From IMG/VR virus record IMGVR_UViG_3300044646_002106, positions 1-23,054 of that record: 23,054 nucleotides of DNA; one strand, written 5' to 3'. The notes beneath the pieces are model-generated. The model was not told the DNA's origin. It saw only the letters and a program-made list of their open reading frames with translations, and made no database searches. The stretch comes from a virus. The translations under genes were made by a program, and so were the position numbers. How positions within the stretch are numbered: position 1 is the first letter of the stretch; each line of letters begins with the position of its first letter. Positions 171-21,724 of this stretch are shown here, in pieces.

Positions 171-1424
171 GTGGATAAAAAGCAAGCGAATAATCAAAAA
201 TCAAACATTGCATCTTTGATGAATAAAAAACTTAATCAAGATCATCAACCTAGAATCTTATGGAACTCTAATGCGCCTTGGGCACCAACAGGTTATGGTA
301 TGCAAACAGCACAAGTCGTTAGAAGATTGAAACAAAATAATTATGATGTTGCAATTGCACCAAATTATGGTTTAGAAGGTGCTTCAACTATTTGGCCAAC
401 TCAATTTGGTGATGTTGAAGTTTATCCTCGAGGCGATGAAAATTATTCAAATGATGTTGTTCCAGCGCACATGTACGACTGGGCAAAACGAAATCCTGAT
501 GCAAAAAATCTTTTAATTACTCTTTACGATGTTTGGGTTTTTAAAGGTAAAAAATGGGCAGATTGGAATGTTGCTTCTTGGGTTCCTATCGATCATTTAC
601 CCGCCCCTCATGATGTTATTAAATGGTGCAAACAAGATTTTGTTACCCCTATTGCTATGAGCAAATATGGTAAAACAATGATCGAAAATGTTGGTGTTGA
701 ATCTGAATATGTTCCTCACGCTTTAGAAAAAATTTATCGACCAACTAATGAAATTAAAACTCTTGATGGTGATGTTATAACTGCACGCGAATTTATTGGT
801 ATTGATGAAAATAAATTTGTTGTTGGTATGAACGCCGCTAATAAAGGTATCGTTCCTAATCGCAAAGCGTTTGGTGAAAATATTTTAGCGTTTTCAATGT
901 TTGCTCAAAAACATGATGATGCTGTTTTGTATTTACATACAAATATTTTTGGTGCCGGTGGCGGAATTGCTTTAATGGATTTAATTCAAGCAGTTGGTTT
1001 GAAACCTCATCAATACAAATTTATTGATCCTTATTTGTATCGAACTGCTTTAGCACCTGAAATCGTTGCTGCAACCTATACAGCGATGGACGTATTGTTA
1101 GCAGTTTCGATGGGAGAAGGATTTGGAATTCCAACTCTTGAGGCACAAGCCTGTGGAACGCGTGTTATTGTTTCAGATTTTGCTGCAAGTTCAGAACTCG
1201 TTGGTGAGGGTTGGTTGGTTGAGGGTCAACCATTTTGGGATCCTATGCAAAAATCTTTTTTCTTTACACCGTCTGTTCCATCTATTGTTGATCAACTTGA
1301 AAAAGCGTATAACAATGGTAGATCGCGTAGTGATCGCGCAATTGAGTTTGCTAAGTTGTATGACGCTGATGATATTTTTGAAACACATTGGAAACCGGTG
1401 CTTTCAAAACTTCTTAGCAAATAG
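171..1424 (+). CDS. Glycosyltransferase family 4 (GT-B fold)
   Basis: This 417-residue protein matches the plan of GT4 retaining glycosyltransferases, which move a sugar from a nucleotide-sugar to an acceptor. The N-terminal Rossmann-like half contains NAPWAPTGYG, a typical early glycine-rich loop. The C-terminal half has the diagnostic E-x7-E motif at E316/E324 within GEGFGIPTLEAQACG, which contacts the nucleotide-sugar. The start is GTG at 171, preceded by GGAG at 160-163. It is the first gene after the terminator and leads three further sugar-related genes. Donor and acceptor cannot be read from sequence. The acceptor may be a virion protein, given its place among structural genes, or a host surface glycan. 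The family call is secure and the role is inferred. Confidence 0.88.
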   Translation: MDKKQANNQKSNIASLMNKKLNQDHQPRILWNSNAPWAPTGYGMQTAQVVRRLKQNNYDVAIAPNYGLEGASTIWPTQFGDVEVYPRGDENYSNDVVPAHMYDWAKRNPDAKNLLITLYDVWVFKGKKWADWNVASWVPIDHLPAPHDVIKWCKQDFVTPIAMSKYGKTMIENVGVESEYVPHALEKIYRPTNEIKTLDGDVITAREFIGIDENKFVVGMNAANKGIVPNRKAFGENILAFSMFAQKHDDAVLYLHTNIFGAGGGIALMDLIQAVGLKPHQYKFIDPYLYRTALAPEIVAATYTAMDVLLAVSMGEGFGIPTLEAQACGTRVIVSDFAASSELVGEGWLVEGQPFWDPMQKSFFFTPSVPSIVDQLEKAYNNGRSRSDRAIEFAKLYDADDIFETHWKPVLSKLLSK

Positions 1425-1481
1425 GGTTTAAAAGCAAAATAAAGGCAAAATTAGGCACTTTTAGTTATGAGGGATACAAAG

Positions 1482-2132
1482 ATGATACCTGCGATGATTG
1501 TTCCTGTTTTAACACGTCATGATTTGTTATACAGAATGATTGAATCAATTAATTATCCGATCAAAGATTTAGTAATCATTGATAACGGGGCACGCGATCA
1601 CGATTGGTCGCCTAACTGGAATCAATGGATTTCAAAAGTTTGGCATTTAAAAATGCCATCAAATCTTGGTGTTGCTTCTTCTTGGAATCTTGGAATCAAA
1701 TCTTTACCGATGAGCGAATATTGGTTAATTTCAAATTTTGATGTTGAGTGGGGTGGCGATAGTTTAAAAATGTTCGCGGAACAATCTTCTGCAGAAAAAC
1801 TTATTTTATCAAATGGTGCTCCTGAGTGGTGTGCATTTTCGATCGGTTGGCAAATTATAAATAAAGTTGGTTTATTTGATGAAGCATTTCACCCTGCATA
1901 TTTTGAAGATAATGATATGCAACGACGAATAATAAATAAAAATATGGAAATCGTTCAATCATTTATTCCTATTGCTCACGATAATTCCTCAACTTTGAAA
2001 AATGGTTTTCAAAAAATAAACGATATAACTTTTAGCGATAACGCTAAACATTGGCAAAACAAACAAGATAATGAAGATTTTTCTGAAGGTGGTTGGCAAT
2101 TGCGTCGTAGAAGAAAAAACTCATGGGATTAA
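1482..2132 (+). CDS. Glycosyltransferase family 2-like (GT-A fold)
   Basis: The protein opens with a beta strand and VPVLTRHDLLYRMIESI, followed by VIIDNGA, SNLGVASSWNLGI and an acidic metal-site-like SNFDVEW, which is the usual order in GT2 enzymes. AYFEDNDMQRRI near residue 145 resembles the ED motif of the family's catalytic region. An in-frame ATG lies at 1467. I prefer ATG 1482 because GAGGG at 1469-1473 sits 8 bases before it. The 3' end overlaps the cytidylyltransferase by 10 bases, so the two are probably translated together. Length, about 216 residues, is short for the family and fits a bare catalytic domain. Confidence 0.82.
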   Translation: MIPAMIVPVLTRHDLLYRMIESINYPIKDLVIIDNGARDHDWSPNWNQWISKVWHLKMPSNLGVASSWNLGIKSLPMSEYWLISNFDVEWGGDSLKMFAEQSSAEKLILSNGAPEWCAFSIGWQIINKVGLFDEAFHPAYFEDNDMQRRIINKNMEIVQSFIPIAHDNSSTLKNGFQKINDITFSDNAKHWQNKQDNEDFSEGGWQLRRRRKNSWD

Positions 2133-2548
2133 GAGTTTATACAGGTGGAACTTTTGATTTATTTCACGCAGGTCATATTAACTTTTTGAAACGTTGTGCT
2201 GAAATTGCTGGTATTGGTGGGACTGTAACTGTGTCCTTGAATACAGATGAGTTCATTTTTGAATACAAAAAATCAACACCTATTTTGAATTATCAAGAAC
2301 GCTTTATTGTTTTAGATGCTTGTAAATTTGTAAATTTTGTTGTTCCTAATATTGGTGGGGCTGACTCAAAACCTGCTATTGAGGATTGCAAACCTGATGT
2401 GATTGCTATTGGTTCTGATTGGGCAAGAAAAGATTATTACAAGCAAATGCAATTTGATCAAGATTGGTTAGATGAACGAAATATTAGTTTAATTTATATT
2501 CCTTATACTAAAGGCATTTCTAGTACGTTGATTAAACAAAAAATATGA
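2123..2548 (+). CDS. Glycerol-3-phosphate cytidylyltransferase-like protein (TagD type)
   Basis: The protein has 141 residues, the size of a single-domain cytidylyltransferase. The nucleotide-binding signature GGTFDLFHAGH is at residues 8-18 with H15 and H18 forming HxGH. STDEF-like NTDEF, IAIGSDW and the C-terminal GISSTLIK (131-138) match the TagD plan of GTFDL, ISTDEF, GDDW and GISTTKI. Known members make CDP-glycerol or related CDP-alcohols from CTP for teichoic-acid-type polymers. It overlaps genes on both sides (10 bases upstream, ATGA downstream), tying it to the glycosyltransferases. A related nucleotidyltransferase substrate such as a heptose or ethanolamine phosphate cannot be excluded. 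Confidence 0.82.
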   Translation: MGLRVYTGGTFDLFHAGHINFLKRCAEIAGIGGTVTVSLNTDEFIFEYKKSTPILNYQERFIVLDACKFVNFVVPNIGGADSKPAIEDCKPDVIAIGSDWARKDYYKQMQFDQDWLDERNISLIYIPYTKGISSTLIKQKI

Positions 2549-3063
2549 TTGTTATTGGAACAACGCCTGGACGAGAAAATTGGCTTAATGATTGTTTAAG
2601 TTCTTTAAATAAATCATGTTTAGTTTTATCTGATTTTTCTTATGAATTAGGAAAAATAAATTGGTGCAAAAAACATTTAAATAAACCATTTTTTTTCTTT
2701 CAAGATTCTATTGTTTTTAAATCAACTGATTGGATTGATGAATTGTTTGATCGCAAAAAAAGTGTTGCTTTAACTAATGATCCAAGTTCTTATGGAATGT
2801 ATATGGGCATTTATGATCCGATTGTTTTAAATATGGTTGAAATTCCAAAAGTTAAAAATAAAGTCGAAGCAATAAAATATGAAATTGAATGGACAAATAA
2901 ATATGTTAATTATGCTGTTGATGTCGATATTGCTTTTCCTGAACTTTGTGATTCTCGTGCTAGTGGTAAAGAAATTAGGCATGGGCGAGAATGCCTTGTT
3001 TTAGAAAATGAGTATTTAATAAAATATAAAGGTAATTGGGGACAAAAACCTGCTATAGACTAG
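2545..3063 (+). CDS. Putative GT-A-like sugar-cassette protein
   Basis: This 172-residue protein starts at the ATGA overlap with the cytidylyltransferase. It begins with IVIGTTPGRENWLNDCLSSL, like the first beta-alpha unit of GT2-type enzymes, and has an acidic FFFFQDSIVF after a strand, where GT-A enzymes place the DxD metal site. A normal GT2 core is about 220 residues, so this is short, and I see no clear catalytic motif. Its tight coupling supports a job in the same pathway. It could be a degenerate or specialised glycosyltransferase, or an unrelated partner protein. Confidence 0.6.
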   Translation: MIVIGTTPGRENWLNDCLSSLNKSCLVLSDFSYELGKINWCKKHLNKPFFFFQDSIVFKSTDWIDELFDRKKSVALTNDPSSYGMYMGIYDPIVLNMVEIPKVKNKVEAIKYEIEWTNKYVNYAVDVDIAFPELCDSRASGKEIRHGRECLVLENEYLIKYKGNWGQKPAID

Positions 3064-20456: not shown

Positions 20457-20830
20457 GTAAATCAAAGCAAAAAGGAACATTCGCTGAAACAGCAATTGTC
20501 GAATATTTAAAACAATTCTGGTCAAACGTTGAAAGACGTGCTTTATCAGGATCGAATGATAAAGGCGACATAGCAAATGTTCCTAATGCTGTAATCGAAA
20601 TAAAAAATCAAAAGTCTTACAAAATACCGGAATGGATGAAAGAAACCGAGCAGGAAAGAATAAACGCCGGGACCCCTTACGGTGTTTTAGTTATCAAACC
20701 CAATAAAGTTGGTATCACCAAAATAAATCAATGGTGGGCAGTAATGCCTTTAGAACAGATTGTGAGTTTGTTAGTTGAGTTTGAAAAATTGCAATCACAA
20801 CAATCTGCCTCGAACACAAATCTGTCCTAA
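20453..20830 (+). CDS. Holliday-junction-resolvase-like PD-(D/E)XK nuclease
   Basis: The 125-residue protein begins SKSKQKGTFAETAIVEYL (E12 as in resolvase helices). It has GSNDKGDIANVPNAVIEIKNQKS, where D39, E49 and K51 give the D-x(n)-ExK active site. Archaeal-type and actinophage resolvases of similar size have this order, cutting four-way DNA junctions during recombination or DNA packaging. Neighbouring SSB, ERF-like and HNH genes agree. A related restriction-like nuclease is possible. The WhiB gene begins inside its 3' end. Confidence 0.72.
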   Translation: MSKSKQKGTFAETAIVEYLKQFWSNVERRALSGSNDKGDIANVPNAVIEIKNQKSYKIPEWMKETEQERINAGTPYGVLVIKPNKVGITKINQWWAVMPLEQIVSLLVEFEKLQSQQSASNTNLS

Positions 20831-21119
20831 GTGTGAAGCACCTGATGGTTGGCAACATTTTGCTTTATGCACAATGGAAGATTTAGATTTCATGTTTCCT
20901 GATGAAACAGATCCAATGCTTGTTTCTAAATGTAAAGCGTTATGCCAAAACTGTCCGGTAAAAGGTTTTTGTTTAGAAATCGGTTTTAATGATGATTTTG
21001 GTATTTGGGCAGGCTTTACAACTGCTGAACGTAAAAGATTAAGGAAAGTTTTTTCTTTAAAAGATAAATCAAAAATCGATCGACGTGTAATGATTCGCAC
21101 CATTGCACATCGTTTATAA
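20775..21119 (+). CDS. WhiB-family iron-sulphur transcription factor
   Basis: The conserved cluster is C32 (ALCTMEDLDFMFP) with C57, C60 and C66 in CQNCPVKGFC. The G(I/V)WAG turn follows (GIWAGFTTAERKRLR), then a basic tail. WhiB proteins bind a 4Fe-4S cluster and act with the sigma factor in Actinobacteria, and phage copies can modulate host transcription. The start is uncertain: TTG 20775 lies inside the nuclease gene, with TTG 20781 next. An extra CPKC pair (C17/C20) precedes the core if the longer start is used. This gene is the best evidence for an actinobacterial host. Confidence 0.85.
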   Translation: MSLKNCNHNNLPRTQICPKCEAPDGWQHFALCTMEDLDFMFPDETDPMLVSKCKALCQNCPVKGFCLEIGFNDDFGIWAGFTTAERKRLRKVFSLKDKSKIDRRVMIRTIAHRL

Positions 21120-21122
21120 CTT

Positions 21123-21198
21123 GGGGTGATAGTTTAATGTTAGAACAGGCTCTATTCCAAGAGTCAAGTGGCGGTTCAAATCCGACCTCACCTCTCCA
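21123..21198 (+). tRNA. tRNA-Gly(UCC)-like element, degenerate
   Basis: A 76-base cloverleaf can be drawn. Acceptor GGGGTGA (21123-21129) pairs with TCACCTC (21188-21194), one G-T. D stem GTTT/GAAC (21132-21135, 21143-21146). Anticodon stem GGCTC/GAGTC around the 8-base loop TATTCCAA (21153-21160), with TCC as anticodon. T loop TTCAAAT (21175-21181). T73 and an encoded CCA end (21196-21198). C35, C36 and U73 fit glycine identity. Departures are the 8-base (or 6-bp stem plus 6-base) anticodon loop, a bulge in the T stem, and U for G19. It may be a working unusual tRNA or a decayed one. Confidence 0.6.
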
Positions 21199-21724
21199 AC
21201 TTAAATTTGTTGTTGTTAAAGCACAACTTGCTTGTGATCTTAATGAAAAGTGGCATAGTCGTTTACCAAGAATTCATTGGTCAAATGTTGTTCGATCTAA
21301 ATACAATGTTTGTTTTGGTGCAACTTTTGAAAATAGATTTATTGCTAGTGCTATTTGGTCAAGTCCGGTTGCTCGCAATTATGATTTTAATCAGGTTTTA
21401 GAATTGCGCCGTATGGCGTTAAGTGCTGATTGCCCAAAGAATACGGCTACTCGCATGATTTCATTTATGACTAAATACATTAAAAAAGCATTTCCTGAGA
21501 TTGCTTTATTGATTTCGTATCAAGATACAGAAGTTCACACAGGAACAATTTATAAAGCCGCAAATTGGATTCCAGCAAATCGAACTAAGTTTGCTTCTTG
21601 GAACGTGTCGCGTGAAAGGAATAGTGATCAAAGCACAGCAGATAAAGTTAGATGGGAATATAAAATAAAAGAAATGCAAGCACGTAAAGAAAAAATAAAA
21701 CACGAACAAACATCATTAATTTAA
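21137..21724 (+). CDS. Mom-like GNAT acyltransferase
   Basis: The 195-residue protein contains WHSRLPRIHWSNV, FIASAIWSSPVARNYD, LELRRMALSADCPKNTATRMI and LLISYQDTEVHTGTIYKAANW. This order is typical of the Mom-related phage acyltransferases, known in Mu to modify adenine and protect phage DNA from restriction. The only canonical start before the domain is ATG 21137, inside the tRNA-like element. The element's GGGGTGAT serves as a good Shine-Dalgarno sequence 7 bases before it. The first about 20 residues are therefore read from tRNA-like sequence. The modification made is inferred. Confidence 0.68.
   Translation: MLEQALFQESSGGSNPTSPLQLKFVVVKAQLACDLNEKWHSRLPRIHWSNVVRSKYNVCFGATFENRFIASAIWSSPVARNYDFNQVLELRRMALSADCPKNTATRMISFMTKYIKKAFPEIALLISYQDTEVHTGTIYKAANWIPANRTKFASWNVSRERNSDQSTADKVRWEYKIKEMQARKEKIKHEQTSLI

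Follow-up and report, generated by a model that had tools for sequence, protein, structure and literature searches.

Positions 21,123 to 21,198 (plus strand) of the window, by which is meant the whole 23,054-base IMG/VR virus record analyzed here, contain a 76-nt tRNA-Gly(UCC)-like element with U73 and an encoded CCA, and this element lies within a gene for a Mom-family DNA modification enzyme (mom). Judged from sequence comparison, its cloverleaf is real and not that of a decaying tRNA, and mom-tied elements of this kind form a large, previously unnoticed family of phage RNAs. By sequence and by analogy with known systems, the element is probably a tRNA dedicated to Mom, a protein of GNAT fold: glycylated but non-proteogenic, it would supply the enzyme's glycine.

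The acceptor stem has 7 bp with one G.U pair and is formed by GGGGTGA (21,123-21,129) and TCACCTC (21,188-21,194), the latter followed by U73 and CCA up to 21,198. The D arm (GTTT-AATGTTA-GAAC, 21,132-21,146) has a 4-bp stem and contains the mom ATG (21,137-21,139). The anticodon arm (GGCTCT-AUUCCA-AGAGTC, 21,148-21,165; anticodon UCC at 21,156-21,158) can be drawn as a 6-bp stem with the 6-nt loop AUUCCA or equally as 5 bp with 8 nt, and the T arm (GGCGG-TTCAAAT-CCG(A)CC, 21,170-21,187) carries a conserved bulged A at 21,185. All arms are on the plus strand and were assigned from sequence, fold, alignment, and family covariation. Lacking a 7-nt anticodon loop and having a T stem broken by the bulged A, the element departs from the norm for decoding and EF-Tu binding. 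Sequence and fold agree with the original prediction of a 76-base cloverleaf with a 7-bp acceptor stem, a TTCAAAT T-loop, T73, and CCA, and its description as tRNA-Gly(UCC)-like with an expanded anticodon loop (8 bases, or 6 on a 6-bp stem) stands.

The fold z score of the element is −2.07, and its score against the Rfam tRNA model (RF00005) is 28.6 bits, just under the gathering threshold of 29 (E = 6e-4 for 501 bp × 4227 families). ARAGORN reported 0 genes at this position with default parameters; at relaxed thresholds, as had been recommended with the prediction, the element was found with a 6-base loop. Several relatives' elements were called tRNA-Gly or tRNA-??? by the same program. Given that tRNA finders reject or mislabel these elements and that gene callers run through them, the family has been invisible to annotation. 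The window element is nevertheless far beyond chance, since homologues with compensatory changes in all four stems occur on more than 100 other viral contigs.

The mom gene (21,137-21,724, plus strand) was assigned by matches to PHROG 1384 (E = 1.3e-26) and Pfam PF25680 (E = 2.2e-20; 73.7 bits against a curated cut-off of 27.1), by AlphaFold modeling, and by similarity to PDB 8bv8, the phage Mu Mom, which was the best solved structure match (VIA Z 15.9; profile E = 4.7e-33). By these methods the ORF belongs to the same family as Mu Mom, and its modification activity is predicted. The ORF begins in the D-loop and continues in frame through the remainder of the element. Because the D-loop ATG is the only in-frame ATG, GTG, or TTG start ahead of the Mom domain in the window, the element encodes Mom residues 1-20. 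AlphaFold2 (90 Mom sequences) modeled the protein well as a GNAT fold beginning at residue 21 (overall pLDDT 85) and left residues 1-20 unstructured (pLDDT about 59). The gene is flanked by a WhiB-like regulator gene (20,775-21,119, plus strand, from profile searches), whose stop lies 3 nt before the element, and by an SSB gene. The element had been described as lying in an otherwise protein-dense region; it does not occupy a gap between genes but lies in mom and is mom-linked throughout its family, which the original prediction had missed.

The WhiB-like gene suggests an actinobacterial host for the window phage. Judged by translation, WhiB-like genes also occur in the three nearest phage contigs (L032, 252-605; L042, 3400-3753; L051, 2710-3045), and this recurrence suggests actinobacterial hosts for the phages nearest the window. 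At the left end of the window (171-2548), glycosyltransferase-like and nucleotidyltransferase-like ORFs were recognized, also by translation.

Of the three contigs, L032 was retrieved with the exact D-arm pattern, and L042 and L051 with a T-arm pattern. Their elements are nearly identical to that of the window, conservation spans exactly G1 to A76 while the flanks differ, and their mom genes are only about one-third identical to the window Mom. A scan based on a Mom alignment recovered at least 80 mom loci, about 30 of them with a diverged homologous element in frame. A degenerate pattern describing only the RNA was first checked on loci already known and then run on IMG/VR, where it produced at least 117 matches. 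Among those listed, 115 adjoin mom, 111 of them at its 5′ end and 4 at its 3′ end, and the contigs of the remaining two end 0 and 25 bases past the element. Every evaluable listed match (115/115) is therefore beside a same-strand mom. The corresponding figure was 0/119 for control loci (0.99 Mb) drawn from IMG/VR by an unrelated 14-base pattern, nearly all of which are chance matches. The family is known from metagenomic contigs, and the locus counts are lower bounds.

The RNA-only pattern matched three times in 84,980 bacterial and archaeal genomes: two matches are an element with mom (on Pricia and Pseudomonadota MAG contigs), and the third, with an unpaired acceptor, is due to chance. The D-arm pattern with the 8-nt loop had no match in bacterial genomes. 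A blastn search of the window 3′ end or of an element against 50,697 phage records returned no real relative, the one weak match being a tRNA-Cys, and no mom-linked element was found in the sampled isolates.

Structure is strongly maintained across the family. Standard pairs filled 99.4% of the pair cells in 23 distinct elements, and double changes occurred in 17 of 22 pairs; none of 500 shuffles reached the observed pairing or covariation, and no slide came near either. In 62 distinct 76-nt elements, 98% were paired, with double (compensatory) changes in 18 of 22 pairs. G1-C72 and G3-C70 are invariant in this set, and pair 2-71 is C-G in 59 elements and G.U (G2.U71) in the window's group. The bacterial glycine identity set (U73, G1-C72, C2-G71, G3-C70, C35, and C36; PMC9976931) is complete in 59/62, a count in which U73, C35, and C36 are fixed by the pattern itself; by design, positions U33-C36, A63, C70, C72, and U73 are fixed in all pattern-selected statistics. 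Two elements were found through mom, free of the pattern: L256 retains U73, C35, and C36, and L247 has A73. The L256 element (2969-3041, fused to mom) has the loop CAACCA with anticodon ACC, having kept C35 and C36 and lost U33 and U34. G18G19 is variable across the family, and the CCA is not encoded in L185 and L364. Located at the EF-Tu contact, the bulged A separates T-stem pairs 2 and 3; it is present in all pattern matches (the pattern requires it) as well as in L247 and L256. Decay, which the original prediction had offered as the alternative on account of the T-stem bulge and odd D-loop, is not consistent with a bulge that is family-wide.

A glycine tRNA at mom was considered worth following because the product of Mu Mom is an adenine glycinamide. 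The glycinamide nature of the Mu modification was reportedly described by Swinton et al. in 1983, and to our knowledge the donor has been an open question since the 1980s. The linkage to mom leads to a specific proposal for this donor, namely glycyl-tRNA. Earlier work suggested an acyl-CoA, for instance glycyl-CoA (PMC7824862), the only donor proposal found in the openly accessible literature; a search of that literature for Mom together with glycyl-tRNA found nothing. As far as is known, a phage-encoded, mom-embedded tRNA family would be new even if a tRNA-dependent Mom had already been reported.

With somewhat less assurance than for the donor role itself, we favor a reading in which Mom enzymes are glycyl-tRNA:DNA-adenine transferases with a private, ribosome-excluded tRNA, the transcript becoming either donor or enzyme and the glycinamide arising by acyl transfer and rearrangement. 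In the probable donor model, the mom transcript would have two mutually exclusive fates, tRNA or Mom mRNA. In the first, the RNA would fold, be cut by RNase P at G1 and trimmed at its 3′ end to CCA, and be charged by the host glycyl-tRNA synthetase. In the second, translation from a start codon within or just upstream of the tRNA would yield Mom. The glycyl-tRNA would be barred from the ribosome by its T-stem bulge, placed where EF-Tu makes contact, and by its tight 6-nt anticodon loop, and Mom, as a GNAT-fold transferase, would move the glycyl group to adenine N6 of phage DNA. A likely chemistry would begin with acyl transfer to N6. The purine C6 would then move intramolecularly, in a Smiles-type shift, to the nitrogen of the glycine, converting N6-glycyl-adenine into its isomer α-N-(purin-6-yl)glycinamide, the known Mu product, and making a separate amidation step unneeded; this shift appears plausible on purely chemical grounds. 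Processing, charging, EF-Tu evasion, the donor role, and the chemistry are all what we infer for the element. Several points count against the donor model: the many mom genes without the element, G2.U71 in the window's group, the missing CCA of L185 and L364, the ACC anticodon of L256, A73 in L247, the rival glycyl-CoA proposal, and the need for some partition between the two products of one RNA, as translation through the tRNA would unfold it.

The proposal has precedents, and the element has known counterparts. The phage elements share with bacterial tRNA-Gly(UCC) the cloverleaf, UCC, U73, G1-C72, G3-C70, usually C2-G71, the CCA, and the T-loop; they differ in the 6-nt/8-nt loop on a 6-bp stem (fused copies), the bulged T-stem A, variable G18G19, in-frame gene overlap, and mom linkage. 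In staphylococci, the Fem transferases draw on a non-proteinogenic tRNA-Gly whose T stem is weakened and whose G18G19 is replaced (PMC4052509). The Staphylococcus aureus tRNA, donor for FemX/A/B, resembles the element in altered G18G19 and in a T stem whose changes are predicted to make EF-Tu bind less tightly, and by analogy in serving an aminoacyl transferase. In contrast, the element is phage-borne, has a bulge instead of weak pairs, and lies inside the transferase gene, and adenine in DNA is the acceptor proposed for it. Among GNAT toxins, the majority act on Gly-tRNA (PMC9177977), and TacT recognizes U73 and G71 (PMC9976931). TacT and AtaT2 share with Mom the GNAT fold and recognize Gly-tRNA(Gly), but their reaction is acetylation of the glycyl group from acetyl-CoA, whereas with Mom that group itself would be transferred. 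The thrS tRNA-like operator and viral tRNA-like structures also have a tRNA shape within mRNA; the element differs in being complete up to a CCA boundary, coding in frame, and occurring outside mRNA leaders as well. In phage Mu, unlike at the window mom, Com binds the mom mRNA and controls its translation, and we know of no tRNA in Mu mom.

Many mom genes are without the element (43 of 90 tree rows), and a dedicated tRNA is thus optional; if the donor model holds, these genes must use host Gly-tRNA. On the Mom tree, which was sampled partly by element, well-supported branches require at least 9 changes of the element trait, and parsimony gives 13. A single weak match, in a tRNA array, came from 46 IMG/VR records whose mom genes have no element. 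On one contig (L212, 21-2385), mom is preceded by ordinary tRNAs in an array (Asn, Leu, Ala, and others). Mom N-termini without a fused tRNA (L002, L225, L227, L229, L339) often start with a motif such as QDDLF, QEDLF, QLNLF, or ERLDLF, which resembles a sliding-clamp binding motif.

Among the alternatives, the element might be a tRNA mimic acting in cis in the mom mRNA leader, where the cloverleaf would mask both the start codon and the ribosome site, and mom translation would be set by whichever of Mom, GlyRS, or RNase P binds it, as at the thrS operator, with no donor role; we regard this as unlikely, though worth weighing. It would explain why 111 of 115 listed copies are at the mom 5′ end, and it agrees with the acceptor strand of the window, where GGGGTGAT (21,123-21,130) resembles a Shine-Dalgarno sequence for the start codon in the D-loop. 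Mom is toxic on expression and silent in lysogens (PMC12707154), which also suits such control. The element lies in the leader over the mom start in most fused copies but not in the 3′ copies. Among 92 fused copies, mom starts inside the element in 14, only upstream of it in 41, and possibly at either place in 37, and an operator is poorly matched to the 41. The glycine identity bases, U73, and CCA would be superfluous unless a tRNA enzyme binds the operator.

Placement variants bear on the same question. The element overlaps the mom 3′ end in L276, L289/L334, and L370, lies upstream of mom and separated by a stop in L339, and is upstream in another frame in L351; neither 3′ nor unfused copies can hide the mom start. 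Elsewhere one element accompanies two or three diverged tandem mom genes (L051, 7397-9497, minus strand; L178, 3000-5147; L189; L191; L194). Such placements, the L247 fusion described next among them, point to a tRNA that diffuses more than to an operator in the leader, and the 3′-located copies with a normal 7-nt loop (L276 and L289, which have no encoded CCA) argue for a role in trans. In L247 (2492-2920), the element is fused in frame to another small ORF (GHCYIATEALFYSL...HWWIVD...DPTA) directly upstream of mom; from its sequence, this ORF is a possible Cys-His-Asp enzyme that could act in the same modification pathway.

It is much less probable that the element is an ordinary phage tRNA-Gly decoding GGA/GGG, or a +1 frameshift suppressor by way of its 8-nt loop. 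The anticodon UCC, the CCA, and the glycine identity bases would suit a decoding tRNA, but the exclusive mom linkage among evaluable listed matches, the T-stem bulge at the EF-Tu contact throughout, and the 6-bp stem with 6-nt loop, whose closing pair covaries (U-A/C-G) in fused copies, would not. The 8-base loop had been put forward as a cue for +1 frameshifting; it is fixed in mom-fused copies, but the loop has 7 nt in unfused ones, so frameshifting does not characterize the family.

Less probable again is a dead tRNA captured as the Mom N-terminus and conserved as peptide. The ORF is indeed open through nearly all fused elements, 91 of 92 of which are 76 nt (1 mod 3); the sole 77-nt element has a stop immediately before its D-loop ATG. 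The L247 element (7-nt loop, longer D-loop) is also 76 nt, and that of L256 is 73 nt. Translation of mom begins within the element or upstream of it, which is why the ORF extends across it. The extra anticodon-loop base would keep the overlapping frame open and is presumably tolerated because the tRNA does not decode. Against conservation as peptide, differences in the element are flat over codon positions in fused gene pairs of 50-97% Mom identity (third/(first + second) 0.44-0.54), whereas in the mom body of the same pairs they are mostly at third positions (1.0-2.6), and compensatory changes alter amino acids. Flat changes together with unstructured residues 1-20 indicate that selection acts on the RNA and not on the encoded peptide. 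Stems compensated in relatives above a peptide without constraint are the reverse of what the original prediction named as grounds for its refutation. The same tRNA also occurs outside mom ORFs, and mom genes of the same clade (L174, L203) are without it. A sliding-clamp motif in the tRNA-encoded peptide of fused copies was considered and dropped, as this peptide has no coding constraint. Least credible is descent from a host tRNA gene as a site of recombination or attachment: different mom genes do stand behind near-identical elements (the window and L032/L042/L051) and the cassette varies in position relative to rusA-like and whiB genes, but the cloverleaf is full length with compensatory changes in all arms, not in a 3′ half alone, and its 8-nt-loop D-arm pattern is unmatched in bacterial genomes.

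The family presents a full tRNA evolving within a protein-coding frame in many phages. Peptidoglycan, lipids, proteins, and antibiotics are acceptors for aminoacyl-tRNA. If the donor reading is true, DNA would join this list, the missing donor of the phage Mu modification would be named, and, as far as we know, an aminoacyl-tRNA would for the first time be the source of a DNA base modification.
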